Assembly: GCF_964204645.1 (NCBI RefSeq)
Contig: NC_134026.1
Span: forward strand, 27,732,650 to 27,796,649
Origin: Tubulanus polymorphus
Taxonomy: Eukaryota; Nemertea; Palaeonemertea; Tubulaniformes; Tubulanidae
Reading direction: 5' to 3'
Length of the DNA stretch: 64,000 nt
The position numbers and the translations under genes are program-made. The notes beneath the pieces are model-generated. The model worked only from the letters and a program-made list of their open reading frames with translations, was not told the DNA's origin and ran no database searches. The stretch's first letter is position 1; each line of letters starts with the position of its first letter. Shown piece by piece: positions 27,033 through 60,540 of the stretch.

Positions 27033-27041
27033 GTCCGCTAG
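27033..27041 (+). other. Target-site duplication, left copy (GTCCGCTAG)
   Basis: Nine bases directly outside the left terminal inverted repeat, identical to 60532-60540 directly outside the right one. Confidence 0.8.
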
Positions 27042-27109
27042 GGTTGTCATTCTTCCAAGACGAGTTTGTCGATGACGTCATATATAAATAATAACAAACA
27101 CGTGCGTAC
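27042..27109 (+). repeat. Left terminal inverted repeat of the giant element
   Basis: Begins GGTTGTCATT and matches the reverse complement of 60462-60531 with one or two substitutions and a few single-base gaps. It contains a perfect CRE (TGACGTCA, 27073-27080) immediately followed by TATATAAATA (27081-27090), which resembles an inward-pointing promoter. Confidence 0.8.
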
Positions 27110-27164
27110 TCTCCGTACCAGTGTCGGTGATAAAGAGTACAATCGGAGAACGACTGTACATAAT

Positions 27165-27480
27165 CCCTTGATTCAGAGTAGTCCTGATGCTGAATATAGG
27201 ATGTACAGGGGTATCCCGGGTTCGAATCCAGTTATTACTGATACTGGTTTAGAGTGGTCCTGACTGAGGCTGAGATGCTGGAACACAGGCCGTGTGTCTC
27301 TGGGGTTTGAACCCGGCCGAGTACTCGTGGTCCTGATGCTAAATAGAGGATGTACAGGGGTGTCCCGGGTGCGAACCCAATAATTACTGAAAGTGGTTCT
27401 GGAATGGCCCTGATGCTGAATAGAGGATATACTTTGGGGTGTCCCGGGTTCGAACCATGTGAATACTGGTTCGAAACCAT
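27165..27480 (+). repeat. Left subterminal array of ~77-bp B-box-bearing repeats
   Basis: Four units of 72-78 bp, each opening near GTCCTGATGCTGAATAGAGG and carrying a pol III B-box-like GGGTTCGAACC about 35 bp later. No matching A box is seen. The same family occurs at 59040-59416. Confidence 0.75.
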
Positions 27481-27984
27481 ACATATTTAAACCGTCAAGT
27501 GCTGCCCCTATACATATCGTTGACGGTGAATATATGAACTACCTTATTACTCGCGCGCCGCAGTAGGATAATTGAACTATCAGTTAGTTCACAAATTTAC
27601 CGCTTATGATACACAAGTGGCAGCACCCAACAGTAAATGACCGACTGTATGTACTGAAAAAGAAATGAATAGATTCGTAATCAAAAGTGAGAGCCATCAC
27701 AGGGTTCACTCACTCAATCACACTACCGATCACAATTTGGGGCTGCTCTTATTGGCGTTTCAAATTATACCCTCTGAAATTACATCCTTCATCTGAAATA
27801 TTTCTGTTGGTTTTAAACATGGGTCAGTGGTGCTGTAATGTTTTTTTTCCCTAAATTTATGATCCATTAAATTATTTCATCTTCAAATCAATATCACCGA
27901 GTAGGCCAACCCCTCTTCACAATCTGAAATGTAAAAAAAAGAAAAAGACTTGGGGCAAATTACCAAGTCACGTGAAATAAAAAA
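27481..27984. other. Non-coding stretch between repeat array and tRNA-like element
   Basis: I see no gene; AT-rich apart from a short CGCGCGCCG run near 27552. Confidence 0.4.
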
Positions 27985-28065
27985 GCGAAAGCTGAGCAGG
28001 CAGGACTCGAAACTGTGGTCTCCGGTTTACCAGGCGGGAATTTTAACCACTACACTATAGATCTG
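27985..28065 (-). mobile_element. tRNA-like SINE head or tRNA pseudogene
   Basis: On the - strand it reads TAGTGTAGTGGTTAAAATTCC (A-box region of Asp/Glu/Gly-type tRNAs), a CCCGCCTGG anticodon-arm-like part, then TTTCGAGTCCTGCC (B box). Acceptor, anticodon and T stems do not pair properly, so it is not a working tRNA. Confidence 0.55.
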
Positions 28066-28325
28066 TGGTAATCACTCGGGTGTGCAAGTTTGTCTGGTAT
28101 GTGATTTCGTATGTGTTCAGTTTGCTTAAAATCTATTTTCAGAATGCATCTTAAACAGTTTGTCAAACGGATTAAGTTAAACAGATAACTGGGGTAAACT
28201 GAGGACACATCAGTGTGAATATTTGCGTGGATTTGAACCAAATGGAATTTTTTTGTGGCGTTGATCAGGTTCGAATCCCATCAGAAAATGATTTTCTAAA
28301 CTTGGCGGTAATATTGGTACTTTTC

Positions 28326-28408
28326 ATTGGTCAGGATCAGTGACGTCACACTGTCAGTATAAAAACTCAGGTCAGCTGATCCCTCTTTCCAGTTCGGCCA
28401 TTTTTCAG
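28326..28408 (+). promoter_or_regulatory. CCAAT/CRE/TATA promoter and first exon of the element-borne gene
   Basis: Inverted CCAAT (ATTGG, 28326-28330), perfect CRE (TGACGTCA, 28341-28348) and TATAAAA (28358-28364) are spaced as in a real core promoter. About 25-30 bp downstream begins a short non-coding exon ending at 28408 with TTTTTCAG|GTAAGC. The acceptor ATTGCAG at 29013-29019 opens exon 2. Confidence 0.7.
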
Positions 28409-29137
28409 GTAAGCAAACGTCATCCATTTTATTTATTCATTTCGATCAAATTCATTTTATTAATCTTACTTGTAAATGTTATACATAGACCTTAGGTTTC
28501 GCACACGAGACAATTTCCAAAGTTCCGAAAGTTCGGATTACACTATATAGGTGTTTAATTATGACATTTCCATTGTGACGTTCCTTTTGCTCAAAATTGT
28601 CCAAATTGTGTTTTAAATATTTAGAATTAAATTACAACATTTGATTTTCAATTTAGCTCTCGTAATAATGAAGACGTTATTGTGATTTTATTGAGGAAAT
28701 GGAAATTTATCAAATTTATTTATGAAATTTTCAGTTTTTCTGGTGTTCAAATCTACGCGCTAAAGCGGCTAGTTGACATGCCTAGGTGTAATACACAGAC
28801 AGCTCAGTCTATTCAACCATGACTCGAATCCATAGAATCCTTTCATTCGAAACGTCGTTCAACTTAATTCTGGTGGCTTCTATATCTAATATTTGAAAAT
28901 AATGATGCCCAATAATTTAATGTTAATTATATTATCATTCAATATAAAGAGTTAGCTATTTCTTAGAATCAATAATTTTTGATTTTCTTGATTTTAATAA
29001 CATTTGTTTTACATTGCAGTAACAGCAGCAGTTAATATAACCAGCGACAGCAGCAAGACAACATCACCAATTGAACATTCCAACTACCAAACTACGAATA
29101 CCACAACTACAACTATATTACAACTCAACAGGACACC

Positions 29138-32100
29138 ATGTCAACCAAATCAGACATTTTCTTGGGACTTCTAAAATTGGTGCGCGCCGAGGTCCTGACC
29201 TTGGATGCTGAATCCCTCGGCGCGTTTTTTGATTTGAGTAAGTACAAACTTTACTTCATCAATCTTAATTAGTTCATCTTGAGTATCTCGAATTCTTTTT
29301 TGACAGACATCTCAAATTATTTGATTTCTTATATCTGAAATTATTTGATCTCAAATTCACAATTATTTTATCTCAAATCTCGCATTATTGGATTTCCTAA
29401 ATCTCAAATTGTCTCAATTATTTCGAATATCATCAATTTGAAAATCTAATATCATCTAATGTCAATTTCATTCAATCCTCTTTAATTTTGGAAAACTCAA
29501 TTTATGTCTCACACTGATTTAATTTTGAAAATATCATTTTATGTTTCTAGTCTTTTATTCTATTTCAAATTTCAATTGTTCGAGTATAAATTTTTCGTTT
29601 TGACAAATGTTGCAATTTTGTCACCACTCTTAAACTCGATTGAATTTGTTAACAAATCTAATAGTGAATAAAGTTTGATTTGAATTGAATTGAATAGCGA
29701 GTAGAGGCTCTGGTGGATGAGAATTAACTTGAGGAAGTAACTTCATTTCCTGGTTGGTTTCAAATATCGTCGAAATTTTGAAATATTCCTCATGTTATTC
29801 ATGTGAATGCTGTGTCCAGTCAATAGAGAGTTACAACATAAATAGTTTAGACTGTCTAGGCCTCCAGACCAATGCACTTCATAGAAAATCCTGATTTATG
29901 TTTGATAAAGCAAGTAATTGGACTGCGCAGTTCAGTCCATTTAGTCACAGGGGTTTGGCGATGGGCTTGGATTTTATTTCCGGGTTGTTGATAATCTCGC
30001 GAGAATGGCGCTAAATATGAACTGCAAATAAATTCAAAATATCATAGAAATACCTTGTGTTTATATTGTTTATTTATCCGCCATTAAGTTCCGATAAACA
30101 ATTGGTCGTTAAGGATCATTATCAGACGGTCGTCACGCTACTATATAAAATAACAAGGGATGAAACGCAGTTCAATTCATGCCAGCCAGAAAGTTGGGAC
30201 AGTCACGTGACAGTCGCGCTTCTTATTTGAATGAATGCAAACCCGAAGCATCTAAGATGGAAACTATGATACGAAAAATATTTGAGATTAACTTACATTC
30301 AAATGCATTTTTTTTCTATGAATTATATATTTGATCACAATTTATTCTTTATAAATTATTAATTTCATATGAATCATAATCTGACAATTGATACCGGTCT
30401 GTGAATATGTTAACTTTTCATGTTAAAGTTTTAAATGTGATGACATCATCAGAATGTCACGTGACTGTCCCAACTTTCTGGCTGGCACAACTCTGAAGGC
30501 GTTTCATCCCTTGTTCTTTTATATAGTAGCGTGACGACCGTCTGATAATGATTCTTAACGACCAATTGTTTATCGAAACTTTATAGCGGATAAATAAACA
30601 ATATAAACACAAGGTATTTCCGTGATATTTTGAATTTATTCGTAGTTCATATTTAGCGCCATTCTCGCGAGATTATCAACAACCCGGAAATAAAATCCAA
30701 GCCCATCGCCAAACCCCTGTGCATTTAGTCAGTAAGCAGACTTCAGTTTCCCTTACAGTTTAGTCCATATTTTAATCAGTAACTGGACTGGCCGGGTTTA
30801 GTCCATAGTGTATTTAGTCAATAACTGGACTGCGCGGTAGTCCATAGTTAAGTCAATAACTGGATTGCGGTTTAGTCCATATTTTAGTCAATAACTGGAC
30901 TGCTGTGTAGTCCATCGTTTAGTAAATAACTGGACTGCGGTTTAGTCCATAGTTTAGTCAATAACTGGACTGCGGTTTAGTTGATAGTTTAGTCAGGAAC
31001 CGGATGGCTGTTTAGTCCGTATCCAGATACCTGTCACAGATACGTTTAAATACCCGTTTAGATACCGCTAAAAAGCACTAATTTTTACGGTACTTTCGTT
31101 TTTCTCTGCGACTCCAGGATCCGAAAACATGTGATTTTTTTTTATTAATCATTCATCAATCGTCAGGAAATTCAGGATCACTATTTTTGATTGATTGGTT
31201 AAACTTTGTTCCTGGTATCTCAAGGTAGTTGCTCAAAACAGTTTGAGATCCCGAGATTATGGCGGGAAGGAGGTATATCTCGCAACTGCTATCATGAGCT
31301 TATCTGCGAACTAGTCTCAAGCCACACCCACTCAATGTTTATACTAGATCTAAACTGATGTTTGTAACGAATGTCGTTCACTAGCTCAGCTCATAGTCTG
31401 AATCTTCATCGTCTTTTTTAGCTGCACCAAAGCATACGGTCCCAGTGGTTTAGTCAGTATCTGGACCACAGTTTAGTCAGTATCTGGACCACAGTTTACT
31501 CAGTATCCGGATGACAGTTTAGTCAGTATCCGGATGACAGTTTAGTCAGTATCTGGACCACAGTTTAGTCAGTATCTGGACCACAGTTTAGTCAGTATCC
31601 GGATGACAGTTTAGTCAGTAACTGTGAGATTTATTTCGTTCTGAGACCAGATTTTATCAAATTTCCTCTAGCTGTTCTTCAGATAGGCCTACCCTTTGAC
31701 TTAATGTTTAATTTTCAGAATTCTATTATTTTCTTAAAGTAAAAAGTATTTCCTCTACCGTTATCCAGGCCTGACATTGATCTAGGTCTATCCTGTTTTA
31801 CACCTTACAAGTTCGACGTGGACATTTCGTATTGTTTTTTCTGTAAACGGCTGCAGCTGTATTTATAGTGAATTATTCCACTGAATGATTCTATACTTGA
31901 AGGGTAAGTAGTGACTTAATTGAAATACTTAATGAATTCATGTGAAATAGGCCTAATTCTAAATATCATTTATTGTTCGCTGTTTAATGATGTATGATTT
32001 TTGATAGATAAAAATCTTATCATTATTTGTAGTGAATGGATTTAATTGTATGAAAGTACAGCAGCGGACAGTATGGTGTGAAATGGTTGTTACCCCTAGT

Positions 32101-35100
32101 GGTTGTTTCTGAAAATAAAAGTTGAAGTTTTTTGTTTGATGATGAAAATACAGAAGATATTTGAATGAAATTTTTTGTGTCGTTTTTCTGTTTGTCATGA
32201 AATGAAAATGAATTAAACTTACTTAGCAAAAACCATAGGGAAATGTGCAGTAATCGAAGGAAATATCACAATTTTTGGAACTAAAATTTGGTGAAAATTC
32301 ATTTTAGATAAAAATCTTTTCAAATGTATCGCATTTTATTGGATTTTTTGCCCTTAATGATACTGTAGACTTTGCTTAAACTGGTAGACGGTCTATATCT
32401 GGTATAATTTGTTCAATTCGATGAAATAAAGATATGTTGTTTTTCAACACATATTTCCCGTTTTCTGGTATTGCTCTGTTCGATGATAATAATGATGATA
32501 ATATTATGGGTCTAATATAGACCTAAATCCAGCAGCTGCTCAGGGCGCTTCACATTTTCCCTTTTTTTGCCCCAGCCGATCACTTCAGTTCCGTTTATTC
32601 TCTGCCTAAATCGGTAAACTGTAATGGCTGTTCGCCTATATTATAGAATACGTGTATGTACTATCAACCTTCTATCTCTGTTAGCAAAAATACATAAAAA
32701 CATAAGAACATCTTTACGTATTTTTGCTGTTAGTGATTAGGCCTTGTGTTCTATTAATGCACACGCATGACTCAAACTGGTCATAGTTTCCATTACTCAA
32801 CGAGGACGTCACAAATGGACTGAATCGGAGGAAAATGTTGCGGGATAAAGAAACATGAAATGTCCAGTCTATTGAAGCACTTGTGTCTAGTATATTATCT
32901 CTTTCAGCGCCCATGTGAAATAAGAGAAAAACCCATCATTGTTACCTAAAAAGTAGGAAAATCAGTAGAATCTTTGGAGCTCCGTAGAGTGAAAACTGTA
33001 AGAGCTTTATGGCAATTGAAAAGTTTGTAGGGTATGACCCTTGGAAAATTTTGGTGATAATTTTTCTTACTGGATGTGACGTCCTATGCAAATGAGCTAA
33101 TTTGCATAAATTATAATCGGTGACCTATTTATTTGATAACCCCCCTAAATTTCAGGTATCAAAATGAACAAATCGGGTATCTAGCCTCAGCTAACAGCTG
33201 ACAATATGTAATATTCTATGTCTACAGTCAGAAATATATATTGTATGGGTAAATTGTAATTAGAAAATGAGCTAATGATTAAACGACAGGGCACTGTACG
33301 ACCTGAAATAATCCGTAGACGAAAGTGGACTGTGCTCTGAAAGAGTTATAGAAGGAATTTGGGGATTCACTACATGGTCAGATTGTATAAAATACAAAGA
33401 AATTGATAATTGTGACCGCTTATAGGCTCAATAAATCTTTTTATCAATTGATTTTTGCAATTCTTAAAAACCGGTAACTGCCTAATTAGGTAAAAAATGA
33501 AGGTGCCAAACTGTAGCGGATTTTAGGCGGAGTCTACTGCATAATGAATACCAGTTGAAATGGCTGTGCATGGAATTTTGTTGATCTGAATAAATCAATG
33601 GCTGGTGTAAGATTATACATTCTAGGTAAGTTATATAATGAATATGTGGAGTACCGATAGGCCTATTGCTGACAATGAATATTCTATTGGGAATAATGAA
33701 TTACAGCCATTTGTGGTGATAGTTAAATATTGTTCTTCAAAATGAATGTTTTTTATTTGTAGTGAGTGTTGTTTCTGAAGGTGCAGTAGCGGGCAGTTTT
33801 GTGTGAAATGGTTTTTACTGGTTTTAGATTCAGGGAAGTGAAATTATTTATGTCGTTTTTCTGTTTTAATTCATGCTGTAAATAGTTTAAACAATAAAAT
33901 ATAAAAAAATCAGTCATAATTTTATCTTCATTTTTGAGAAAATATAATGTTCACACTTGCCTCATGTTCAGAGGAAATAAAATGCAAATTCTCCCACTTA
34001 CCGTGGATGGAGTGTGGCCCTGTATGCAATAAAAAAGTGTTCTACAAAATAATTGAATAGATTTCTGAAGTGTGGACACATTTTTCACACATCCAATCGA
34101 AAAGTAATTACTGAATAAAAGGAATTATCGATTAATTTTTTGTTGATACAGCGCGACATCTGTTTTAAATGAGATCTTTTATCGTTGCAAAGTTTTCGTT
34201 TCAATTGGTTGATAAATGATACATAAATGAAAAGTTATCATGCGTGTCATTCCAAAGAGTTCCCAGATTTTGAAACAATGGTCATGGGTTAACAATTCCA
34301 TTGATTATTCATTATAATGTATAGTTTTTGTCACTTGGAACGTCATCACCCCGAGACAAAAAATCAAGTGTATTTTTGATTCATGATTTGCTACCAAAAT
34401 TGATTGTCAAGGTTGTAGGATGTAATTTATTACAATCAGTAGTTCCAGTAATGAATTAACAAAAGTGTAAGTCGCCAGCAACTTGCAAAGTACCCGTCCA
34501 CGTACAGGGTTGGTTCTGAAATATATAAGTATATAAGACATAAAAATACCATTATAAAATGTGTATTGAAAGATTCAATTATCAGCCTCACTGATGATAT
34601 ACTGTCGACTTATCGTTATTATGTAATGGATGATGCAAATCATGAGAGCGGTAAAAAGTGTAGTTACAACAGAGTAAGTTGTACAACCGTATCGTGCAAC
34701 CAGTGATATGATCACTTCTCACAAAATAAGCTTACGATCACTTCCAAACGTACAAATGACCCTTCTTACCCAACTTTCTTCTTTGTTGCCATCACGTCAC
34801 ATTCACCTATTGGATAACTGCATCATTTTATAGGTTAATATCTACAAATACGATAATTATATGCGAACATGTCATTATGTCATTTATGTGCAATATGCAT
34901 GATCCTTAATGTTTTTTTTTTTCATTCCAGATTTAGACATCATTCAAAATATAAAAAAAGACCAGTCTGAAGCAGCCCGCAGAGCCCTTCCAGGATTGGA
35001 AGACCATTTCAAAAGGTGCGTAACATCTATCTGCGGGCCTAAGGAACCAACTCTTCCTGAAATAATACCACCTTTTGAGTTGGTTCCTGTGCAGGAGGTG

Positions 35101-35783
35101 GACCCTGCTTCTCCTGTAAATGTGGAGCAGGAGGTCACCCCTCAAGTGGTGACCCCGGCAGAGGCGCCACAGCTTCAGACGCCTTCACTGCATCGGTCGC
35201 CCCGTCGAAATACAAAAGAGATAGATTATACAGAAGGTACAGGGCGTCCGAAATCCAAAAAAAAGGCAAACGTGCAGCTCGTCCTCCCCCACTTCCGCAA
35301 CCAAATTTTGAGGAGGAGAGCAGTGATGAGGAGGAATTCGCCACTCCTGGAGCGCCACCACCAGGGCCCGCAACACCATCACCTCGCGATGATGATATTA
35401 CTCCACCACGACCACCACGACAACCACCTACAACTACTACTAATTCTACTACTACTACCACTACTACCACTACTAAGAAAAGACGACCACGACCACCTAC
35501 TTCAACTCCTACTAATACTACTACAACTCCGACAACTAGATCAAATAATACAAGAAATAGAAAAAGAAGACTTGAAGATGAAGAAAGTGATGATGATTAC
35601 GAAAATAATAATCGGCATCGACAGCCCAGGCATCGACATCGGGCGCTCCAAAGGGGCCACCACCTTCCCCCGCTGTCGAGCTCATCGCGCGCGGCCCTGG
35701 TTGGTCACGAAACATCGAATATAAAGATCCTATTTAAATGCTCCGTGACGTTGAAGGGGCCTTTAAAGGCAAATATGAATTAG
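29138..35783 (+). CDS. Element-borne gene of unknown family with apparent frameshift
   Basis: Coding exons 29138-29237 and 34931 onward are joined across a 5.7-kb intron (donor TTGA|GTAAGT, acceptor TTCCAG; phase 1). The ATG has a good context (caccATGt). The first ~60 residues are amphipathic and helical (DIFLGLLKLVRAEVLTL, then FFDLNLDIIQNIKKDQSEAA), reminiscent of a death-fold domain, but that is only an impression. A Pro/Glu/Val-rich part follows. At the A8 run 35257-35264 the sense frame changes: the frame continuing to TAA 35722-35724 becomes Leu/His-rich and improbable, while the +2 frame gives a coherent disordered tail. That tail has an acidic EEESSDEEEF block, Pro/Thr tracts, basic KKRRPRPP and RNRKRRLEDEESDDD, and a stop at 35781-35783 (~317 residues if one A were missing from the sequence). 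Poly(A) AATAAA at about 36009. Family not recognised. Confidence 0.55.
29946..30721. mobile_element. Foldback DNA transposon, 266-bp inverted repeats, 8-bp duplication
   Basis: Left arm 29946-30211 and right arm 30456-30721 are near-perfect reverse complements (both ends start CACAGGGGTTTGGCGATGGG). The 8-mer CATTTAGT flanks both sides (29938-29945 and 30722-30729). The 244-bp middle has no coding frame. An 8-bp duplication fits hAT- or P-like non-autonomous elements. It lies in the long intron of the element-borne gene, inside the 35-bp repeat tract. Confidence 0.9.
30765..31030 (+). repeat. Tandem array of ~35-bp units
   Basis: About seven units of the kind TAACTGGACTGCGGTTTAG / TCCATAGTTTAGTCAA. 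A related half-unit precedes the foldback element near 29920-29945, so that transposon inserted at the array edge. Confidence 0.8.
31440..31625 (+). repeat. Tandem array of 23-bp units
   Basis: Roughly 7.5 units of CAGTTTAGTCAGTATC(T/C)GGA with alternating CCA and TGA endings; shares TTTAGTCA with the neighbouring 35-bp array. Confidence 0.85.
31626..34908. other. Remainder of the long intron of the element-borne gene
   Basis: No exon can be supported. A degenerate duplication is visible: 32030-32230 and 33755-33885 share GTGTGAAATGGTT and TGTCGTTTTTCTGTTT. Otherwise AT-rich sequence. Confidence 0.4.
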
Positions 35784-36284
35784 TTAAACGCAGGCGAACA
35801 CATTAATATAATATAGCCCCTTCACTCGCCATTACCCGGGCAACAACATCAGCCCCTGCACGTCTGCAGATCGGCACTTCTTGAAACTCAGTTTTCCCTT
35901 CCTCCTTCGTCGATCTGCAGGTTGCGCAGTGTTAAATATCTGTCAACACTCCTTGAACCAGTGGGCGTGCAGTCCTTCCTTATTTTTATTTGAAAAAAAA
36001 TATGAAAAAATAAAAACCAGCCTTGTAAATATGGATTTTATGGAGTTTTACGGTTAATCTCCAAAAAAATTTAAAAAGATAAAAATTTAAAAAAATTCAT
36101 AATCATTTCATCAATTTATTTATTTTTTGGATAAAAGGAAATTTTTATCCATCATCTCATTCATATACATTTTATATCATTTATTTATTTCTTTTTTTTG
36201 ACTGTACGTCCCACTGTGTTCCACACCATTTTTGTTCCGACCCATATTCATTAAACAGCTCCTAGTAGCGTAGATTTAACTCCA

Positions 36285-36598
36285 TTCAGTATTAGGAAAA
36301 AATGGAGACAAAGTCAGGAAGTCGTGAGACAATTCTGGCATCAGTGGATTAAGGAGACATGACCTCAACTCAGTGTACGCAGAAAATGGTATTCTACAAG
36401 TCAAAACGTCAGCGTTGGAGAGGTAGTCTTAGTTATCGACAAGGATACTCCTAGACGTCAATGGAAGTTAGCAACTAATGCGCAGGTTTATCCAGGAAAG
36501 GACAATCTCATTTGAGTTGTAGACTTTAAAACCGAGAAGAAAGTCTACAAACGTTCGATCGGAAGCGTGTGTCTACTTGAGTTGAACTGTTTAAAGAA
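36285..36598 (+). pseudogene. Decayed BEL/Pao retrotransposon pol tail
   Basis: A + strand frame has the character of the C-terminal end of BEL/Pao integrase polyproteins: a WRQSQEVVRQFWHQWIKE stretch, then VSVGEVVLVIDKDTPRRQWK, then a YPGKDNLI and CLLEL ending. Two in-frame TGA codons (about 36359 and 36513) break it, and no integrase core is present upstream, so it is a truncated relic. It lies just after the 3' end of the element-borne gene. Confidence 0.75.
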
Positions 36599-36644
36599 CT
36601 AAAGGGATTATGAAATGATCGATTCGAGGAAACGGATATGCGTT

Positions 36645-37010
36645 AAGATTCATTGTGCTTCTCACAGTGCTGAAGCATTTACCATCTTTGCTTCTACTTT
36701 GCAGTAGTAACCATCCATACCACCTGATTGTGGAAGTAGCCTTCTTAGGAGTCATCTATCCTAATCCTATGGTCAGCCTTTTCAAATGTCTTTCGGGATA
36801 TAGACCATCCTTACTACTACTTCTATTACAACACCTTATTATTAAGGTTCATTTTGCTTCTCATGATGCTGAAGCATTTACCATCCTTGCTACTACTTTG
36901 CAGCAGTAACCATCCATACAACCTGATTGTGGCAGTAGCCTTCTTAGGAGTCATCTATTCTAATGCTATGGTCGGCCGTTGTAAATCTCTTTCGAGATAT
37001 GCAGGGAATC
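36645..37010 (+). repeat. Tandem duplication of a ~195-bp unit
   Basis: Two copies (from about 36648 and 36843) share TGCTGAAGCATTTACCATC, AGTAACCATCCATAC and GCCTTCTTAGGAGTCATCTA. They directly follow the BEL relic and could come from its 3' non-coding part. Confidence 0.8.
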
Positions 37011-37064
37011 AATTCCTACAATAACTCCCATGGAGTTTGAAAAAAGTGGATTTTTCAAATCAAA

Positions 37065-37215
37065 AGGAACAGCTATGATTCACATAATGTGATTCTTTAT
37101 CGAACTTTATCGGAACATGGAGAAGGAATAGCTATGTTTCACACATAATGTGTTTCCTTATGAAGCTGAAAATAACATGGAGAAGGAACAGCTATGTTTC
37201 ACATAATGCGATTCC
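37065..37215 (+). repeat. Three ~62-bp tandem units
   Basis: Each unit has GGAACAGCTATGTTTCACA followed by TAATGTGATTCCTTA and ends in ACATGGAGAA; the TTCACA..TGTGATTCC part is itself an inverted repeat. Confidence 0.75.
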
Positions 37216-37864
37216 TTAGGAAACTACATTGAAACATATTGTTCAATGTTCCATGTTGCCCCTCCCCCCAAATACTATGACGTTTATACGTCAATGTAAA
37301 ACCATTATATCGTTATTAACATACTTGTTTTTCTAATTACAGAATTAAAGATTAATTTAATATGACATGAAAACTTGAATGATTGAAATGTTAATATCTA
37401 ATGCTCAATGACGGAGGTAAATCCTTCACATGTGATCGGAGGGATTTAAAATGTTTACTCATAAGGAAAAGGAATATATATTTATATACGTGAGATTGCC
37501 TGGATTAAAAATTGCGCAAGAAAGGAAACCACAGCAAAGACTACGGTAATCAATTTCATTACATTTCTAAGATGTGAAACCATCACCATCTGGATCGGTG
37601 GTCAATGCATGAATTTATGAGTTCATAATTGAACATAGGATATAATGCTAAGATCTGCAAAAATGCAATGATTAAGAATCTCTGATAAAGAAAGTATAAA
37701 ATAAAGATCTTGGATTGGAAAGTTTGTTGTTATCAATCACATTAGTGATTGGCTTTTATTGATTGATATTGATCTCAACTGATTCTAACGATCACCAGGA
37801 TCAAGGGTTGAGTTCAAAATTCTTGTTAATAATTAGTCTTAATTAATCTCTTGTTGAAATCAAT
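37216..37864. other. Non-coding stretch
   Basis: No gene or array recognised. Confidence 0.4.
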
Positions 37865-38035
37865 AAGGCATATGAGAGAGGAGGTTCAGGGAGGTATGAG
37901 AGAGGAGGTTCAGGGAATATGAGAGAGGAGTTTATGGAGATATGATAGAGGAGTTTATGGAGATATGATAGAGGAGTTTAGAGAGATATGAGAGAGAGAG
38001 AGAGGAGTTTAGAGAGATATGATAGAGGAGATAGT
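37865..38035 (+). repeat. Purine-rich GA tandem repeat
   Basis: About six variants of TATGAGAGAGGAG(G/T)TT(C/T)A with pure GAGAGAGA stretches. Confidence 0.85.
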
Positions 38036-39740: not shown

Positions 39741-39744
39741 TCAC

Positions 39745-44411: not shown

Positions 44412-44453
<42 letters not shown>

Positions 44454-48930: not shown

Positions 48931-49014
48931 AATATTATCACATTACGCATTTTAAAAGTGTTATACTCAAAGATGCTATTGTTTGATTGCTTCACTTTGG
49001 TTCCTTGCACCTGA

Positions 49015-50165: not shown

Positions 50166-51870
50166 CTCCCTGATCATCTTTATTGCGACTTTACGTTTTA
50201 AATGTATAAATATTCAAAGCAGCTATCCATCGATAGCTTTTGTGGTGGTTGAATCATTGAAATGTTACTGGTGTTGGTACATTGTATATATTGTAATATA
50301 TGTTGGTGAAATGGGATTGATCATGTTTCCTGATCATCCTTATTGCGACTTTACGTTTTAAATGTATAAATATTCAAAACAGCTATCCATCGATAGCTTT
50401 GTGGTGGTTGAATCATTGAAATGTTACTGGTGTTGGTACATTGTATATATTGTAATATATGTCAGTGAAATGGAATTGATCATGTTTCCTGATCATCCTT
50501 ATTGCGACTTTACGTTTTAAGTGTATAAATATTCAAAACAGCTATCCATCGGTAGCTTTGTGGTGGTTGAATCATTGAAATAATGCTGGTGTTGGTTCTG
50601 TGTATATATATTGTAATATATGTCGGTGAAATGGGATTGATCATGTTTCCTGATCGTCCTTATTGCGACTTTACGTTTTAAATGTAAATATATTCAAAGC
50701 AGCTATCCATCGATAGCTTTGTGGTGGTTCAATCATTGAAACGTCACTGGTGATGGTACATTGTATATATTGTAATATATGTCGGTGAAATGGGATTAAT
50801 CATGTTTTGTGATCATCCTTATTGCGACTTAAAGTTTTAAATGTATAAATATTCAAAACAGCTATCCATCGGTAGCTTTGTGGTGGTTGAATCATTGAAA
50901 CGTCACTGGTGATGGTACATTGTATATATTGTAATATATGTCGGTGAAATGGGATTGATCATGTTTTGTGAGTTTTAAATGTATAAATATTCAAAACAGC
51001 TATCCATCGATAGCTTTGTGGTGGTTGAATCATTGAAATGTCGCTGGTGTTGGTACATTGTATATATTGTAATATATGTCGGTGAATTGGGATTGATCAT
51101 GTTTCCTGATCGTCCTCATTATGACTTAACGTTTTAAATGTATAAATATTCAAAACAGCTATCCATCGGTAGCTTTGTGGTGGTTGAATCATTGAAACGT
51201 CACTGGTGATGGTACATTGTATATATTGTAATAAATGTCGGTGAAATGGGATTGATCATGTTTTGTGATCATCCTTATTGCGACTTAGCGTTTTAAATGT
51301 ATAAATATTCAAAACAGCTATCGATCGATAGCTTTGTGGTGGTTGAATCTTTGAAATGTCGCTGGTGTTGGTACATTGTATAGGTTGTAATATATGTCGG
51401 TGAAATGGGATTGATCATGTTTCGTGATCATACTTATTGCGACTTAACGTTTTAAATGTATAAATATTCAAAACAGCTATGCATCGATAGCTTTGTGGTG
51501 GTTGAATCATTGAAATGTCACTGGTGTTGGTACATTGTATATATCGTAATATATGTCAGTGAATTGGGATTGATTATGTTTCCTGGTCATCCTTATTGCG
51601 ACTTTACATTTTAAATATATGAATATTCAAAACAGCTTTCCATCGATAGCTTTGTGGTGGTTGAATCATTGAGATGTCGCTGGTGTTGGTACATTGTATA
51701 TATTGTAATATATGTCGGTGAAATGGGATTGATCATGTTTCCTGATCGTCCTCATTATGACTTAACGTTTTAAATGTATAAATATTCAAAACAGCTATCC
51801 ATCGATAGCTTTGTGGTGGTTCAATCATTGAAATAATGCTGGTGTTGGTTCTCTGTGTATACTGTATCAG
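50166..51870 (+). repeat. Family B array, block 2
   Basis: About ten and a half ~160-bp units, one shortened near 50970. Confidence 0.92.
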
Positions 51871-51956
51871 CAAATATTATCACATTACGCATTTTAAAAG
51901 TGTTATACTCAAAGATGCAATTGTTTGATTGCTTCACTTTGGTTCCTTGCACCTGA

Positions 51957-53217
51957 AGGTTGTTAACTGTCATATAGAAACGTGACAAACAAACTGATTT
52001 GTCAGTGTGTTACAAGACTGATGACCTCCTTTAATACTGCTTCTTGCTGCTGGGTGTTAATTAATACACTCTGTTTTGGGGTGATATTGAGATCAAGATC
52101 TCCTCTTTCCTTCTTCAACTGTCATGTAGAAACGTGACAAACGAACTGAATTGTCAGTGCGTTACAACACTGATGGCCTCCTTTAATACTGCTGCTTGCT
52201 GCTGGGTGTTAATTGATACACTCTGTTTTGGGGTGATATTGAGTTCAAGAGTCTTCTCCTTCCTTCTTCAACTGTCATGTAGAAACGTGACAAACGAACT
52301 GAATTGTCAGTGCGTTACAACACTGATGGCCTCCTTTAATACTGCTGCTTGCTGATGGTGTTAATTCTTACCACCTTCCATGAACTTCTTGAATTATTAC
52401 ATTAAACATTATTACAATAAGAATTATTACATTAAACATTATAACATCATGAATCATCCTCCTTAAATACTGCTGCTTGCTGCTGGCTCTGTTTTGGGGT
52501 GATATTGATCGCAGGAGTCTTCTCCTTCCTTCTTCAACTGTCATGTAGAAACGTGACAAACGAACTGAATTGTCAGTGCGTTACAACACTGATGACCTCC
52601 TTTAATACTGCTGCGTGCTGCTGGCTCTGTTTTGGGGTGATATTGATCGCAGGAGTCTTCTCCTTCCTTCTTCAACTGTCATGTAGAAACGTGACAACGA
52701 ACTGAATTGTCAGTGTGTTACCACACTGATGACCTCCTTTAATACTGCTGCTTGCTGCTGGGTGTAAATTCTTACCACCTTCCATGAACTTCTTGAATTA
52801 TTACATTAAACATTATTACAATAAGAATTATTACATTAAACATTATAACATCATGAATCATCCTCCTTAAATACTGCTGCTTGCTGCTGGCTCTGTTTTG
52901 GGGTGATATTGATTTCAGGAGTCTCCTCCTTCCTTCTTCAACTGTCATGTAGAAACATGACAAACGAACTGAATTGTCAGTGCGTTACAACACTGATGAC
53001 CTCCTTTAATACTGCTGCTTGGTGCTGGGTGTTAATTAATAGACTCTGTTTTGGGGTGATATTGAGTTCAGGAGTCTCCTCCTTCCTTCTTCAACTGTCA
53101 TGTAGAAACGTGACAAACAAACTGAATTTTCAGTGTGGTACAACACTGATGACCTCCTTAAATACTGCTGCTTGCTGTTGCGTGTTAATTAATACACTGT
53201 TTTGGGGTGATATTTAG
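51957..53217 (+). repeat. Family A array, block 3
   Basis: Copy of block 2 at an offset of 2,942 bp (for example the linker TTATACTCAAAGATGC at 48961 and 51903). Confidence 0.92.
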
Positions 53218-54190
53218 TTTTGGCGAGTTTTGCTCCCTGATCATCTTTATTGCGACTTGACGTTTTAAATGTATAAATATTCAAAGCAGCTATCCATTGA
53301 TAGCTTTGTGGTGGTTGAATCATTGAAATGTTACTGGTGTTGGTACATTGTATATATTGTAATATATGTCGGTGAAATGGGATTGATCATGTTTCCTGAT
53401 CGTCCTTATTGCGACTTTACGTTTTAAATGTATAAATATTCAAAACAGCTATCCATCGGTAGCTTTGTTGTGGTTGAATCATTGAAATAATGCTGGTGTT
53501 GGTTCTGTGTATATATATTGTAATATATGTCGGTGAAATGGGATTGATCATGTTTCCTGATCGTCCTTATTGCGACTTTACGTTTTAAATGTATAAATAT
53601 TCAAAACAGCTATCCATCGGTAGCTTTGTGGTGGTTGAATCATTGAAATAATGCTGGTGTTGGTTCTGTGTATATATATTGTAATATATGTCGGTGAAAT
53701 GGGATTGATCATGTTTCCTGATCGTCCTTATTGCGACTTTACGTTTTAAATGTATAAATATTAAAAGCAGCTATCCATCGGTAGCTTTGTGGTGGTTCAA
53801 TCATTGAAACGTCACTGGTGATGGTACATTGTATATATTGTAATATATGTCGGTGAAATGGGATTGATCATGTTTCCTGATCGTCCTTATTGCGACTTTA
53901 CGTTTTAAATGTATAAATATTCAAAACAGCTATATATCGATAGCTTTGTGGTGGTTGAATCTTTGAAATGTCGCTGGTGTTGGTACATTGTATATATTGT
54001 GATAAATGTCGGTGAATTGGGATTGATTATGTTTCCTGATCGTCCTTATTGCGACTTTACGTTTTAAATATATAAATATTTAATGCCGATAGCTTTATGG
54101 TGGTTGAATCATTGAAATGTCGATGGTGTTGGTTCTGTGTATATATTGTAATATATGCCGGTGAATTGGGATTGATTATGTTTCCTATAG
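53218..54190 (+). repeat. Family B array, block 3
   Basis: Six units; the last ones are degenerate (shortened near 54080). Confidence 0.9.
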
Positions 54191-55100
54191 ATGCTGGCAA
54201 ATTGTGACTTCAGGCCAGGCTGATATTGAGTCTTGGAGTGTTCTCCTTCCCTTACCTTCTTCAAATGTCAAGACGACATTCGATATTGACTGAATTGTCA
54301 GCGACTTACAACATCGATTGCTGCTTTATTCAAATACTGCTCCTTGCTGCTGCGTGTTAACTATTACACTGTGTCTTAGGGGTGATAATGAGAATTGTAT
54401 TTCTGTCCCGTGCCTTCTTCCATTATTACATTAAAACATTATTACATCATGAATTATAACATTATTACATTATCAAAATACACATTATGAACATCTAAAA
54501 AACTCGCAAGTTCCTTCTCCATGTTTACTCATTGCACTCTGTTTAGGGGTGATATTGAATGAGTTGATGTAGTTCTTTTGCTGTGGTTTCCAGAATAGGA
54601 TTGATTGAAATTTCTCGTTTAATGTTCAAAAACCCTGAAAGTGGGAAAATAACTGTTGAATCAATATTTTCTCTTACCTCCTTCAAATGTCAATACGAAC
54701 TGTAACATTGACTGAATAATCAGCGACTTCAGGCCAGGCTGATATTAAGTGTTGGAGTGTTCTCCTTTCCTTACCTTCTTCAAATGTCAAAACGACATGC
54801 GATATTGATTGAATTGTCAGTGACTTCAGGCCAAGCTGATATTGAGTCTTGGAGTGTTCTCCTTCCCTTACCTTCTTCAAATGTCAAGACAACATGTGAT
54901 ATTGACTGAATTGTCAGTGACTCCAGGCCAAGCTGATATTGAGTCTTGGAGTGTTCTCCTTCCCTTACCTTCTTCAAATGTCAAGACGACATGCAGTATT
55001 GACTGAATTGTCTTGGAGTTCCTCCTACCCTTATCTTCCTCAAAATGTCAAAAAGAAGTGTGACATGGACTGAATTGTCAGTGACTTACATCACTGATTG
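54191..55100 (+). repeat. ~97-bp array (family C), diverged relative of family A
   Basis: Units with GACTTCAGGCCA(A/G)GCTGA, GAGTCTTGGAGTGTTCTCC and CTTCTTCAAATGTCAAGACG. The order of motifs matches family A at lower similarity. Confidence 0.85.
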
Positions 55101-55700
55101 CTGCTGACACTCTAAGCCTATTGATTGTGGTGATATTCACGTTCAAGATTGCTGACTGGCAGCAATATTGAATTGTAACACTGTTTGTGTCATACAGGGT
55201 ACAATTTTTCATAGAGTATTCGTTTTCTCATCCACGTAACCTGTATGATATATTTTTCAAGAAGCTTATTGTTTTTGGTTCAAGATTGCTGATAGGCAGC
55301 CATATTGGATCCAAAAATTCACCATTCCCATTCTACAGGCTGCAACTTAAAAGTAAAGTATTCAATTTCACGTATTACATGTTTGGTGTATAGCTCCAGA
55401 ACCCTATTGATTTTGGTGGTATTCGCAGGCAAGATTGCTGACTGGTGGCCATATTGAATTGCAATGCTGCTTCTCTCATACATGGTAAAATTTGTAGTAG
55501 ATTATTCATTTTCACTTATAATGTCTTTGTTATATAGCTCGATGAGTCTATTTATTTTGGTGGTATTTTGGGTCAAGATTGCTGACTGGTGGCCATATTA
55601 GATTGTAACGCTGTTTCTGCCGGTTAGATTTGTGAAGTAGATTTTCACATACTGGGTATATAGTTTGAGAATCAATTAATTTTGGTGATATACGTGTTGA
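55101..55700 (+). repeat. Degenerate ~150-bp repeat (family D), about four copies
   Basis: Recurring AAGATTGCTGACTGG(C/T)(A/G)GCC-ATATTG and GATTTTGGTGGTATTC at 130-160 bp spacing. Confidence 0.7.
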
Positions 55701-56339
55701 AGATTGCTCCTTAGATTGTCAAGTACAATTGTGGCATAAAAAACAATGAATGTTCAGTGACTTACAGCACTAGCACTGATTATTACTCCACGTTAGTGAG
55801 TGATAAAAATATCAGGGTCTAAAACTTTGATAAGGTAAATAAGTTTGACAGTGTAAAAAACCGTTAGCATTCTTATTGCTTTAAACATCTCAGAAAGATG
55901 GTTAATCATCATAAACACTTGCAAAAACAATTGACGTCTCACTTTGCACTTGATGTCCCACTTTGCACTCGACGTCCCGCTTTGCACTTGCACCGTTGCA
56001 TCACTTGCACAAAACAGCACTGGCACACCCGCGGATCCATGCGCATGGTAAACAAATTGATCAGCATGCAGCATGCCATCTTTGTGTGTGGAAATAATTT
56101 ACAAACAGCTGTGAGTTTAAAATTAAAGAAGGTATTTTTGTGTCATTTCTTGTACAATATCCAACAACGATGATGTAAAGAAAAACATAATGTCAATTTT
56201 ATTAAGTTGAAAAAATGAAAAGTGTTGCATAGTTAAATATTAATGAGTAAAATGAGAGAAAAGAGGAAGAAGAAAGTCCCAGAAAGAGAAGCGTTGAACT
56301 GGTGTCTGTTGTCAGCAGAGATCGTAGGAAATCTCCACC
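55701..56339. other. Non-coding stretch with a 21-bp triple repeat
   Basis: At about 55930-56000, GACGTCCCACTTTGCACTTG recurs three times. No gene seen. Confidence 0.5.
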
Positions 56340-57206
56340 CCTCAAACAGAAAGTTCAAGATGATACCGAAAGTGTGTGAGGTTCTGAGAAATTTCGCTAA
56401 GTCAAGACTATAAATCAGGTAAAATATATATTGCTATAAATTGTTTTGTAGATAATAATGTTTCAACTAGGACGGTAAGTTAGTTATAACATGTAATTGC
56501 ATGTTATCTTATTGTAGTGTGTATTGATTTGGTCGTCAAGTACAAAATACCAAAGGATTGATGGGAACCGCCATTCGGGATTGTTCCAGTTGTGCAGAGC
56601 AGTATTTAAGGTGCCATGAGTCTGAATTGACTATAAATCAGGTAAAATTGAAATTTCTTTTTTTAAGAATTATTCAATTTTTGTGTACATTGTAGTTTTG
56701 AGCTTGTGGTTGGCTGTACAATATCAGATGACAGGAAGATCAATGAAGCTGGTTACTTTTATTCTATGTATTTCTGTTGTAGCCAGTGGTTTGTCTGTTC
56801 GTTGGTTGTTGGTAGAGAGGAAAGGAACACATCGGAGTTCACGAAGCGTTCAGCAAATTTCTCAAGGTCCAAGTCATGAGTCTGATTTGACTATAAATCA
56901 GGTATAATTAAACCCGATATGAATTTCATGGTAGGAACAGCAGACTCAATGAAGCTGGTTACTTTTATTTCATGTATTTCTGTTGTAGCCAGTGGTCTGT
57001 CTGTTTGTTGTGGTCGTTGTTGGTAAAGACATGTAATACTAGAGGAAAGGGAAACATCAAAGTTCTGGAAGTGTTGAGTGAATTTCTCCAGGTCGATGTC
57101 GTGACTCTGAATTGACTATTAATCAGGTATAGTTGAAAATTATCTTTGGAGAAGAGTCTTAAAAATGATATCATTATTCATATTTTGTGTTTTGTCATTG
57201 TAGTAT
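56340..57206 (+). repeat. Tandem exon-like modules with splice-site ends
   Basis: Four modules end in the same donor-like GACTATAAATCAG|GTAWAAT (56418, 56641, 56901, 57126) at 223-260 bp spacing. Acceptor-like TTGTAG precedes module bodies (56517, 56695, about 56985, 57203). Bodies share TTGAGCTTGTGG, AGCCAGTGGT(T/C)TGTCTGTT and CCAAGTCATGAGTCTGA. No long open frame, so if transcribed it would be a non-coding RNA. Confidence 0.6.
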
Positions 57207-57231
57207 TGAGCTTGTGGAAAAGATCAGATTA

Positions 57232-57605
57232 GAGATGCCAACCAATTTCTCCGTCAATTCGGGACTTTTAGTGATTGTTACCCACGGGTTAGCGCAGTTC
57301 CGTAGATGCCGACCAATTTCTCCATCAATTCGGGATTTCAGTGATTGTTACCACGAGTGAGCGCAGTTCCGTAGATGCCGACCAATTTCTCTGTCAAATT
57401 GGGACTTTCAGTGTTTGTTACCGCTAGTTAGCGTAGTTCCAGAGATGCCAACCAATTTCTCCGTCAAATTGGGACTTTCAGTGTTTGTTACCGCGAGTTA
57501 TCATAGTTCCAGAAATGCCGAACAATTTCTCCGTCAAATCAGGACTTTCAGTTTTTGTTACTGCGAGTTAGCCTAGTTCCAGAGATGCCAACCAATTTCT
57601 CCGAG
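57232..57605 (+). repeat. 70-bp tandem array, about 5.3 copies
   Basis: Unit has GATGCC(G/A)ACCAATTTCTCC, GTCAAATTGGGACTTTCAGT and TTAGCGCAGTTCCG. Confidence 0.92.
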
Positions 57606-58406
57606 GCTGATAGCTTCAAGTATAGGTTGAATATAAATACACATTGTACATCTATTGGAAAATAGATATGAACTGATGGTTTGATTGGCTGGTTTGTTGT
57701 TGAATCTGATTGTGGGTTATTTATTACTGATTTGCTGCGACTTAACGTTTTAATTGCATACATTTCAAAGGGCTTCTCTTGTTTTTGTTGTGCTGGTTAA
57801 ATTATTTTGTAAATGATAATTGAGGATGTCAAACTTTGGTTTAGCGTTTTGTTACAGTGAATGCACTGTATATGTGGAGAGTATGTACATGTGACTTTGC
57901 GTTTGTTTTTGTAAATACATTTATTTCTTTAAAATGATTGTTTTTGTGTTGCATCTCATTCTGAGGATGTTAAACTCTTAAGTCAAGATACTCAGTTTGC
58001 TCATGACTTGTTTGATTATTATATTGATGAATACATTGATTTTATGGTGTTTGATTATCTGTTGAACTATTGTTTATCAATACCATTTGAACTACTAACC
58101 ACTAGTTGTTTTAACATCAGTATCATTAGTGGTCAGTTGTTCCCTACAAATCGTATGTGTTATTTTTTCTTTATATAATGTACGGTGGACTCTGTTAACT
58201 AGAATCACTTCAAGTCCAGTCACTTTATCTTGGAGTAATGATTCTCCAAGCTTACATCAACTTGGACATAAAGACATTGAACTATTGCATTGAAATTCTT
58301 TTATCTGCAGGCGACAGTTATCACCTTGTCTTAATTGATTCGAGTTAGTCAAGTCTATTGTACATGGATTCTTTTTTCTCTGGAAGTGAATTAAATGAAA
58401 CGAGAC
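57606..58406. other. Non-coding stretch with a stray family-B monomer
   Basis: GCGACTTAACGTTTTAATTGC at about 57738 is a diverged start of a family B unit. No gene seen. Confidence 0.45.
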
Positions 58407-58560
58407 GACAGTTGAACCTCATTAATACGATTGTGTTTAGGACGAAAACCGTTTATTACGATCAGATTTCCAGCATGTCCCGGTTAATTTACATCGATCC
58501 ATATTTTGATAATACGACAATTTCACTTTCAACCATAAGATTTGTATTTAACTAAGGATC
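58407..58560 (+). mobile_element. Pogo/Tigger-like element fragment
   Basis: Starts ACAGTTGAACCTCATTAATA and continues with TTTATTACGATCAG, like the element end at 23255-23420. No transposase. Confidence 0.4.
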
Positions 58561-59039
58561 CAATGTAAAATGAGGACTTCAAACCATTCTGATGTGGAGA
58601 CTTTCTTTTATTAAAGTTATCAGTCTGATTACTCATAAATTATGCATGTATCAATCTGCCGCAGCTTGGCACTACCCTATCTGCTGAGGATACTCCAGTA
58701 CCCACCCATACCCTTCAGATACTCGTTTAGACTTTAGACCTTCTACATAATCTGAAGTACTGGCTCTTCCAAAACACAGCTTGAACCCTCCACTCACCCC
58801 CTTTCAGATAGAATGTCTGGGGTCCAGGCAACAGATCGACACCTTTCTCTTGGCTTTGAGTAATCAGACTGATCTTGTCTGATTACTCTTAAGGTCTCAG
58901 AGACTTTCATTTATTTGACTATTTATGCAGCTATCAACCGGCATTTTGGACACTGATTCCCTGCCATTAATGGAATAATTAATTTAACTGAAAAATAACT
59001 GTGTCAGATACGAACTCCATCGATAGTTGCTCGAGCTGT
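58561..59039. other. Non-coding stretch bounded by a 15-bp inverted repeat
   Basis: CAGTCTGATTACTCA at 58621-58635 is inverted at 58857-58871; possibly a tiny MITE of about 250 bp. Confidence 0.5.
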
Positions 59040-59416
59040 TTCTGATAGGCCCTGATGCTGAAATAGACGATCAGCCGGGGTGTCCCAGTATTTATTTAGA
59101 GTGGTCCTGATGCAGACAAAAAGGACATGTAAGAGTGTTCTGGGTTCGAACGTAGATACCACTTATACTGGGAATGGTCCTAATGTTGATTTGAAGTTAA
59201 ATAGGACTGTACGATACAATTACATGTATACATATAACTATTATCGCCACCTATTGGAATTTCGATAAACTATCAAATAGCTAGAATTAACCGTTGTAAA
59301 TATTTGTGGTGTACCACATTTCACAAGCGCCATCTATCGGAATATGGAATAAAATGTCTACAAACGTAGTGGAGTGGCGGGTTCGAACCCATTGCATTGA
59401 TTCGGAGGGCCGAATC
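59040..59416 (+). repeat. Right subterminal copies of the ~77-bp B-box repeat
   Basis: GGCCCTGATGCTGAAATAGA, GTGGTCCTGATGCAGAC, CTGGGTTCGAACG and GCGGGTTCGAACCC are members of the family at 27165-27480, in the same orientation and more degenerate. Confidence 0.65.
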
Positions 59417-59688
59417 CAGCGACGGATCCAGGGGGGCACCCCCTAAAGTCCTCCCTAATTTTTTATGGACTGACGGCATGTGAAAAATCCCTGAAAATGC
59501 GTAAACTTATGTCTTCGTTTACCAGCGCTTTTTTACGGCAGTCCTACGTCGTTCATGTTGTTTCATACTCTGATTGTGCCCAGAACGCGTCTACGCGCGT
59601 CTAATTTTGAAAAATTCTCTGGGGGAGGACCCCCCAGATCCCTATTTGAATTTGTGCACCCCTCCATGAAATCCTGGATCCGCCGCTG
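59417..59688. mobile_element. 272-bp MITE, CAGCGRCGGATCCAGG ends
   Basis: Terminal inverted repeats match at 15 of 16 bases (59417-59432 and 59673-59688), followed by a GGGGGGCACCCCC-like stretch. No coding sequence. Confidence 0.85.
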
Positions 59689-60461
59689 GACTCTTATCAT
59701 CACAGCCGGATTGATATCTAAATAATCCGGGAATTTGATCAGACGGTGGCCTAGCTAAGTCAGTTTTGGTGGAACGAACATACCTGATAAAAGTCTTATT
59801 AGAACCAGAAAGCACAGGCAGTTGAACAAAACATCGTTTTTTAATCCATTCTTCCCTTTATTGCAAAAGACGGTGCGGGTGAGCTGAATCAAACTCTATG
59901 TAATAATAAGGCTTCAAGAAGAAAAATAAAAAATGTTTTGTTTCGTGTTTTATGTTTTATTTTTCTGAAATCTCTAATGATAAGTTATCAGTTGGTTCAT
60001 GATACTGAAATAGGACAGGGTCTTGAATTTTCTTAAGCAGATTTGAAGCTAGAGTTTCACGTATCATAGTAAATTGAAGACGAATTGAAGAACTGATCTA
60101 TTTTATGGAGTTCAACTGTGTTAAACTGGCATCTAATAACACGTCTTTTTTCATCCTTCAGTTTGATGACTGGATCCCAGGCTCCATATAATTAGATTAC
60201 ATAGCCTACTAGTTGTATTCATCATTATAAGTCTTGCAAGAAAATAAACATTTTCTTCGTAAGTAAATAATTCATTTTGTTTATTTACATACCAAAATAA
60301 TTAATTTAGTGGATATTCCTTGTTGAATAATGTTGAACAAAGAATCATCAAAAGATGATAACGGAGGTAAAGATTGCGTCAATTTATTTATGATTATGCA
60401 ATTTGGCGCACAGAATTGGTTAAATAAAGTCTTTGTATTTGAATTTGTTCCCCTCATCATG
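59689..60461. other. Non-coding right part of the giant element
   Basis: No gene seen. An AATAAA at about 60424, facing the right end, followed by CTTTGTATTTGAATTTG, could end a transcript. Confidence 0.4.
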
Positions 60462-60531
60462 CACGCACGTGGTTATGTTATTATTTATGTATGACGTCAT
60501 CGACAAACTCGTCTTGGAACTAATGACAACC
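60462..60531 (-). repeat. Right terminal inverted repeat of the giant element
   Basis: Reverse complement of the left end: same GGTTGTCATT start, the same internal CCAAGACGAGTTTGTCGATG, the same CRE (TGACGTCA) and an ATACATAAATA variant of the TATA-like run. Confidence 0.8.
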
Positions 60532-60540
60532 GTCCGCTAG
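60532..60540 (+). other. Target-site duplication, right copy (GTCCGCTAG)
   Basis: Identical to 27033-27041. Confidence 0.8.

Follow-up and report, generated by a model that had tools for sequence, protein, structure and literature searches.

Mutator-like elements (MULEs) are characterized in the account given by PMC6446971 by target-site duplications (TSDs) of 8-11 bp and terminal inverted repeats (TIRs) of 14-500 bp. In the related Pack-MULEs and Pack-TIRs, as outlined in PMC8277862, non-transposon sequence lies between the parts of a TIR element and parental copies of the cargo are found elsewhere; the breakpoints inside the transposable element are close together, there is short similarity at the joint, and some of these elements are multicopy via transposition with distinct duplications. 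The captured sequences described there are pieces of genes with a median length of 224 bp across 100 animal genomes; the study states that its animal reference genomes yielded no Pack-MULE. The 64-kb stretch of Tubulanus polymorphus DNA analyzed here (the window; C2, 27.73-27.80 Mb, in a 268-Mb assembly) holds an element with MULE ends and a very long interior of foreign sequence. We consider it probable that this is a giant non-autonomous MULE of the Pack-MULE/Pack-TIR type that captured a repeat unit and then moved as a composite.

The element resembles the Mutator-like elements summarized in PMC6446971 in its 9-bp TSD, its 66-69 bp TIRs and the ZSWIM/MULE-type transposase gene that the genome carries next to matching ends, and differs from them in that the window copy has no transposase and is cargo over nearly all of its length. 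Rehavkus, treated in the same source (PMC6446971), also combines a 9-bp duplication with satellites inside the element, whereas in the present element they are part of the captured repeat unit. The Tetris fold-back transposon of Drosophila virilis likewise links a DNA transposon with satellite DNA, but in the account of PMC4079207 the transposon supplies the satellite building blocks, while here an existing repeat unit is the cargo. The closest likeness is to the Pack-TIRs of PMC8277862, with which the element shares the arrangement of non-transposon sequence between two parts of a TIR element, the parental cargo copies, the close breakpoints and the short similarity at the joint; it differs in having captured 32.6 kb, and a whole distal repeat unit in place of gene pieces. 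The size and kind of the cargo appear to set the element apart among Pack-MULEs and Pack-TIRs and do not seem to call for a new class. Polinton/Maverick and Teratorn elements span tens of kilobases or more and have replication or viral genes of their own. The window element is similar in size, and no such genes were found among the nine of its open reading frames (ORFs) that were tested. None of the titles and abstract openings in the literature surveyed describes this combination.

The element is bounded by perfect direct copies of GTCCGCTAG, a 9-mer with no third occurrence on either strand of the 64-kb window. It starts at 27042 with GGTTGTCATT and ends at 60531 with AATGACAACC, and its inverted TIRs (66 and 69 bases aligned, with two substitutions and three one-base gaps) are 91% identical. 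When the 70 bp inside the 9-mers were scored for inverted matching, the real pair reached 51, whereas the best of 8,970 control pairs, which were other direct 9-mer pairs in the window more than 20 kb apart, reached 18. The two controls with this score fall within the same terminal repeat, and the next best stands at 13. The inverted ends and direct 9-bp duplication of the preliminary description are borne out by these values.

These ends belong to a dispersed family. Genome searches with DNA scored the best 40 candidates (40 of 713, 151, 925 and 533), which makes copy numbers lower bounds: the left TIR recurs at more than 15 other loci, and the right end gives at least 42 matches (40 candidates scored). 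Flanking 9-mers were compared at 17 two-ended loci, window included; L038, which duplicates L037 in reverse complement, was left out, and the left end of L041 was placed by hand. The 9-mers are identical at eight loci and agree at 8/9 positions at two more, bringing 10 of 17 to at least 8/9; among 272 mismatched pairings of left and right flanks, none reaches 8/9 and none exceeds 6. Another two loci, L028 and L036, match at 1/9 in the fixed register and show an exact 9-mer and 10-mer after the end is shifted by two and one bases, respectively; these shifted repeats were left out of the count. The duplication is absent at five of the 17 (L031, L033, L034, L035 and L045, with 2 to 6 of 9). Because the 9-mers differ across the family, no target preference explains the one shared by the window's ends. 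Two independent miniature inverted-repeat transposable elements (MITEs) sharing a 9-mer by chance were rejected on the 8,970-pair control and the mismatched-pairing test together. The motif GGTTGTC stands at both window ends and, among the other loci compared, at L033 alone; most have GGTCGTC. The two-ended relatives are mostly 0.4-1.3 kb long, with L047 reaching 3.2 kb and L029 reaching 9.4 kb. By eye, L029 holds an apparent reverse-transcriptase ORF. ORFs possibly of Polinton type also occur near family ends, one of 1262 amino acids (aa) that is open at the locus end (L045:5216-9001) and one that looks integrase-like by eye (L091:4751-4999).

The 9-bp duplication and the TIR lengths fall within the MULE ranges given above, and the Mutator-like assignment is upheld by transposase genes at two other family loci, of the kind that the preliminary description had suggested looking for. 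At C4:15665442 the distance between a family end and the 3' end of a transposase gene is 1.4 kb; the gene matches the ZSWIM1-3 RNaseH-like domain (PF21056, 4e-13) and ALS2CR8 (PF15299, 1.1e-11). Its match to MULE PF10551 (9.7e-5, 23.2 bits) is under the cut-off of 27.6; the match to a PHD finger, a point of comparison with Rehavkus, is likewise under its cut-off (7.6e-4, 19.9 bits against 24), and a SWIM-like motif was judged by eye. The gene recurs at C2:11196462, this time with a family end on the 5' side; DNA identity between the two copies is 97% over 2.4 kb and 93% over a further 2.0 kb. No second TIR turned up in 14.5 kb at C4 or in the 10 kb examined at C2, and no copy with the gene plus both ends was found. 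The two partial copies argue that the transposase gene belongs between two such ends. A search of the C4 copy (L046:3300-7001, score 50) gave no tandem repeat, and so no counterpart of the minisatellite that precedes the 3' TIR in Rehavkus. Just past the end of the match between the C2 and C4 transposase copies lies a perfect GATG microsatellite of 54.5 copies (L093:7467-7684).

Comparison with the short relatives indicates how the element is built. Three of them (L032, L033 and L047) pass from the left TIR plus ~20 bp directly to the sequence at window position 59736. Among the short relatives compared, none reaches left of 59736, 14 stop at 59736-59740 and the others start further in. With 59736 following directly on the left ~80 bp in short relatives, the window element is a short MULE split by 32.6 kb. 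Its right end, 59737-60531, lacks only the left ~80 bp of a short relative, and that piece is found at 27042-27121. The earlier observation that no other end of a small MITE lies inside holds for a second terminus, which is absent, and fails in that 59737-60531 is nearly a whole short relative. The terminal repeats do occur elsewhere within short two-ended MITEs, as the preliminary description had envisaged for ends that do not form a unit; the unit stands, since the two window ends are complementary parts of a short element broken at one point, with the duplication common to both.

The edges of the cargo lie in a different transposon. The right edge, ..AATAATCCGGGAATTT (59736), and the left edge, TCGGTGATAAAGAGTACAATCGG.. 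(27124), come from neighbouring parts of a dispersed MITE, D; by eye, D is ~330 bp long, with ends GGGCCGACTC and apparent 3-bp duplications in three of the copies inspected, and from its features we take D to be Harbinger-like. Solo, unbroken copies of D on C4, C9 and C2 carry the window's left-edge sequence. The chimeric junctions of the composite read MULE TIR plus GAGTACAATCGG and AATTTGATCAGACGG, and the cargo/MULE junction GAATTTGATCAGACGG is identical in the window, C11 and C3:4.87. In the copies at C9:16.07 and C10:0.36, the left part of the MULE ends TATCAGAC ahead of the cargo, and the right part, after the cargo, begins GATCAGAC in the window, C11 and C3:4.87; the short MULEs L032, L033 and L047 have a single ATCAGA(C/T). 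When the window and the C9 copies are combined, ATCAGAC stands on both sides of the cargo, the window's left copy having been lost.

The cargo itself comes from a repeat family of the distal chromosome arms. Window pieces 27042-29940, 33600-36240, 41990-43848 and 57604-59735 each match tens of genome sites. At least 37 loci of the family, window included, were compiled by hand from two of these searches, and all 37 lie less than 5 Mb from a chromosome end, at a median of 1.2 Mb vs 5.5 Mb for random positions (0 of 10,000 simulations as extreme). Pieces such as C3:2.15, C10:14.28 and C2:9.70 Mb were left out of the 37; of these only C2:9.70 lies more than 5 Mb from an end. Tandem arrangement is seen at C6:3.87-4.08 Mb, where an older-looking array has seven head-to-tail units spaced 27.8-34.1 kb apart and 70-87% identical to the window, and at C2:31.45 Mb, where a unit continues beyond 59407 with the 76-bp satellite, followed by a stretch that matches 27490-27604 at 80%. 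Arrays of the 76-bp satellite occur on C4, C6, C8, C10, C31 and others, at many distal loci. The C11 copy is collinear with window 27175-60531, with gaps. On sequence comparison, the body of the element is one 32.6-kb unit of this repeat family, foreign to the transposon, and the cargo is exactly one repeat period, opened inside D. What had been described as matching no standard class is not a new type of transposon: it resolves into a short MULE (relatives mostly 0.5-1.3 kb) and this unit. The left ends of six repeat units, C11 included, were rejected as the unit's own terminus, as they start with another dispersed repeat, CGTGAAGTGAGC.. The 76-bp satellite unit has the length of a tRNA and, by eye, a T-arm-like box, GGGTTCGAACCC; ARAGORN finds no tRNA gene in the window.

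Other composite loci provide the evidence on transposition. At C11 the same cargo/MULE junction is followed by the exact MULE terminus and then by an unrelated flank, GTCTACGTT, which implies that the window or C11 arose by transposition or by a copy event that stopped exactly at the terminus. At C1:1192068 the cargo is followed by the exact right terminus with flank TTGTTTCCA. As a multicopy element with different duplications, the composite is represented at C11 and C1 by right termini with other flanks, and the left TIR was not found at either. The window's chimeric left end recurs at C9:16.07 and C10:0.36, which are 99% alike over 1.3 kb and probably go back to one event, and within a two-ended element of 439 bp at C10:6348647. 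MULE-derived sequence stands at an end in seven of the 37 loci (the window, C11, C1:1.19, C8:14.28, C3:4.87 without a TIR, C9 and C10). At the other 30 no MULE end was seen in the end searches, which cover the best-scoring candidates, or in the flanking sequence read to the left of 12 units and to the right of a similar number. It seems probable from these junctions that the composite transposed as a whole. The proposal that everything between the ends moved or grew as one unit can be kept for movement, which is likely on the indirect evidence of C11, C1, C10:6.35 Mb and C9, and applies to growth only in part, through the 62-bp satellite, which has 20.7 copies here and ~360 bp, or about six copies, in C11.

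Movement of the composite has to be weighed against growth in place, in which a ~0.9-kb MULE jumped alone, the unit was added later and the other composites came about through distal-region exchange. The duplication and TIRs would look alike in this case, the repeat family resides in the distal arms anyway, and a single complete composite has been found. This course of events is nevertheless rather unlikely, given that C11 shares the junction yet loses homology exactly at the MULE terminus, next to another flank, and that the window's chimeric left end sits within the two-ended element at C10:6.35 Mb.

A series of observations counts against capture followed by movement of the composite. The main weakness is that, in the assembly as it stands, no locus but the window shows the cargo enclosed by both TIRs and a perfect duplication; of other copies sharing both ends, for which the preliminary description had suggested a search, the partial ones at C11 and C1 were found and no complete one. 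C11 has no left TIR and a different left end; C1:1.19 has the right TIR without 58735-60262; and at C8:14.28 the cargo leads to a right TIR without its outermost 11 bases, the cargo-junction stretch being missing as well. The C9 and C10 copies have no right TIR, C3:4.87 stops at 59897, and in the element at C10:6348647 the left terminus is altered and the flanks are not duplicated (4/9). No paralogous empty site was found, as the joined flanks GCATCC-GTCCGCTAG-CGCCATC, also proposed earlier as a query, match the window alone. A 300-bp piece of the unit lies far from chromosome ends (C2:9702990-9703292; window 57604-57900, 92%). A single capture does not account for the units at C3:0.82/1.03 and C4:1.08, which break off in D at almost the position of the cargo's right edge, to within about two bases, and continue into other flanks. 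No intact unit-D-unit join was seen, as all six places with the right-hand edge turn into other sequence, so that an array containing D can only be inferred. As an observation on D itself, a breakpoint recurs just after its CCGGATT..AATCCGG hairpin at C3:821033, C3:1034112, C4:1082745 and window 59736, with three unrelated flanks.

The recurrent right edge is also what speaks for the 32.6-kb unit being mobile by itself, with ends at the D break (TTCGGTGA.. / ..AATCCGGGAATTT), a 7-8 bp duplication of ATCAGAC and the MULE as its target. Three unrelated flanks meet this edge within about two bases (the MULE in the window, C11 and C3:4.87; C3:0.82/1.03; and C4:1.08), and ATCAGAC is duplicated. Both edges, however, are internal to a dispersed MITE that is found unbroken elsewhere, no terminal inverted repeats were seen, left edges differ in other copies, and the nine ORFs tested include neither a transposase nor an integrase, which makes a mobile unit improbable. 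Helitron-type elements have a 3' hairpin followed by CTRR and no target duplication. A Helitron or Helentron origin of the cargo was rejected: as read by eye, the hairpin near the right edge is not followed by CTRR; ATCAGAC is duplicated, and the edges are pieces of D.

The order of events could in principle run the other way, with a 33-kb MULE as the ancestor and the short elements as its internal-deletion derivatives, which is how MITEs usually arise. The short relatives of one type (A: L032, L033 and L047) are exactly the giant's left end plus its right end, the ATCAGAC direct repeats could promote deletion, and C10:6348647 resembles such a derivative. Yet the cargo is also found at 30 further loci with no MULE end seen (ends partly examined) and in a tandem join, short relatives of another type (B: L030, L035, L039 and others) have the same right part with a different left part, and the cargo edges sit inside another transposon, D. 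We regard this order as highly improbable.

Capture and movement of the composite can be set out in four steps. The sequence shows a ~0.9-kb MULE-family MITE with the 32.6-kb insert at a single point ~85-100 bp from its left end. It likewise shows the insert to be one unit of the ~30-kb distal-arm repeat family opened in the Harbinger-like MITE D, with neighbouring D pieces as its edges. Entry may have been most simply as an array circle, since the insert is exactly one period, or as a fragment cut on both sides at the same fragile site. One period with D pieces at its edges is what a single opening of a circle would leave, and a linear array cut twice at one weak site would yield it as well; the insert may then have been sealed into the MULE as a break at ATCAGAC was repaired. 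Finally, and with good support, the transposase of a full-length MULE would have acted on the outer TIRs and moved the composite, which would account for the window's 9-bp duplication and for the unrelated flanks seen at C11 and C1.

The spread of chromosome-end repeats to new chromosomes is usually credited to recombination. In one genome, a DNA transposon is seen here to carry a complete distal unit, with the scars of capture and, less directly, of transposition, and transposons may help distal repeats reach new places. Tentatively, MULEs might seed whole ~30-kb chromosome-end units on new chromosomes through circle formation, capture, a jump and spread by exchange, with the MULE-derived ends at 7 of 37 loci as their trace; this is possible and by no means the likelier course. 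MULE ends around far more than the 224-bp median of PMC8277862 would make the size limits of cut-and-paste transposition, and a role in spreading repeats, testable.

The coding content of the insert agrees with a non-autonomous element. Pfam searches on nine of the 98 interior ORFs of at least 60 aa gave no match at the cut-off, and tblastn of six transposase pieces against the window gave two hits (E 0.055 and 0.11), both outside 27042-60531. No transposase was found inside the element, and the earlier remark that it has no recognisable one stands on both searches. The promoter-equipped gene of the preliminary description is not supported, as the longest ORFs near 35 kb (34903-35721 and 35079-35780) have no Pfam match at the cut-off and are interrupted in C11. 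Some ORFs of 60-190 aa have retained their reading frame in one or both of the C11 and C1 copies, among them 39474-39662 (98% and 97%) and 42430-42804; at this DNA identity they are weak evidence against a flat statement that there is no gene. As far as its sequence indicates, the insert has no apparent coding function of its own. A new autonomous class of giant element was rejected, with no transposase found inside in the searches just described, no Rfam match at the gathering score over 26500-61000 and no tRNA gene.

Table 1. Features of the composite element, in window coordinates.
Feature	Position	Strand	Remarks
Left TSD, GTCCGCTAG	27033..27041	.	One of two occurrences in the window
Left TIR, MULE family	27042..27107	+	91% to right TIR
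Remnant of short MULE left subterminal sequence	27108..27123	+	ATCAGAC lost; kept in C9:16.07/C10:0.36
Truncated right-hand part of MITE D (TCGGTGATAAAGAGTACAATCGGAGAACGACTGTAC..), cargo left edge	27124..27171	+	Solo D on C4, C9, C2
76-bp satellite, start of repeat unit	27172..27470	+	
Cargo, one unit of ~30-kb distal repeat family	27172..59406	.	
Inserted element with ~270-bp inverted arms	29946..30723	.	Absent from C11; in L029, partly in L045
62-bp satellite, 20.7 copies	40388..41669	+	About 6 copies in C11
129/153/159-bp satellite block	47057..54186	+	Common to C11 and C1 copies
First bases (GGGCCGAATC) of MITE D left part	59407..59416	+	
MITE nested in D (CAGCGACGGATCCAGG..CCTGGATCCGCCGCTG), presumably hAT-like from the form of its ends	59417..59688	.	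Absent from C3:0.82 copy
Rest of MITE D left part, ..CCGGATTGATATCTAAATAATCCGGGAATTT; cargo right edge	59689..59736	+	
Right part of short MULE, 795 bp	59737..60531	+	Matches short relatives
ATCAGAC, right of cargo	59738..59744	+	Left copy in C9/C10
Right TIR	60463..60531	-	
Right TSD, GTCCGCTAG	60532..60540	.	

Outside the element, the window has a BTB-zinc finger gene at 2304-4229. A dispersed repeat at 1309-2159 and 26737-26833 shares 97% identity with a segment of L029; further pieces of it lie at C6:0.83 Mb and C12:1.88 Mb. A retrotransposon ORF on the minus strand at 62146-63999, which we take to be of BEL/Pao type, matches DUF5641 (1.3e-18), an integrase zinc-binding domain (7.2e-10) and, under the cut-off, rve (5.3e-7).

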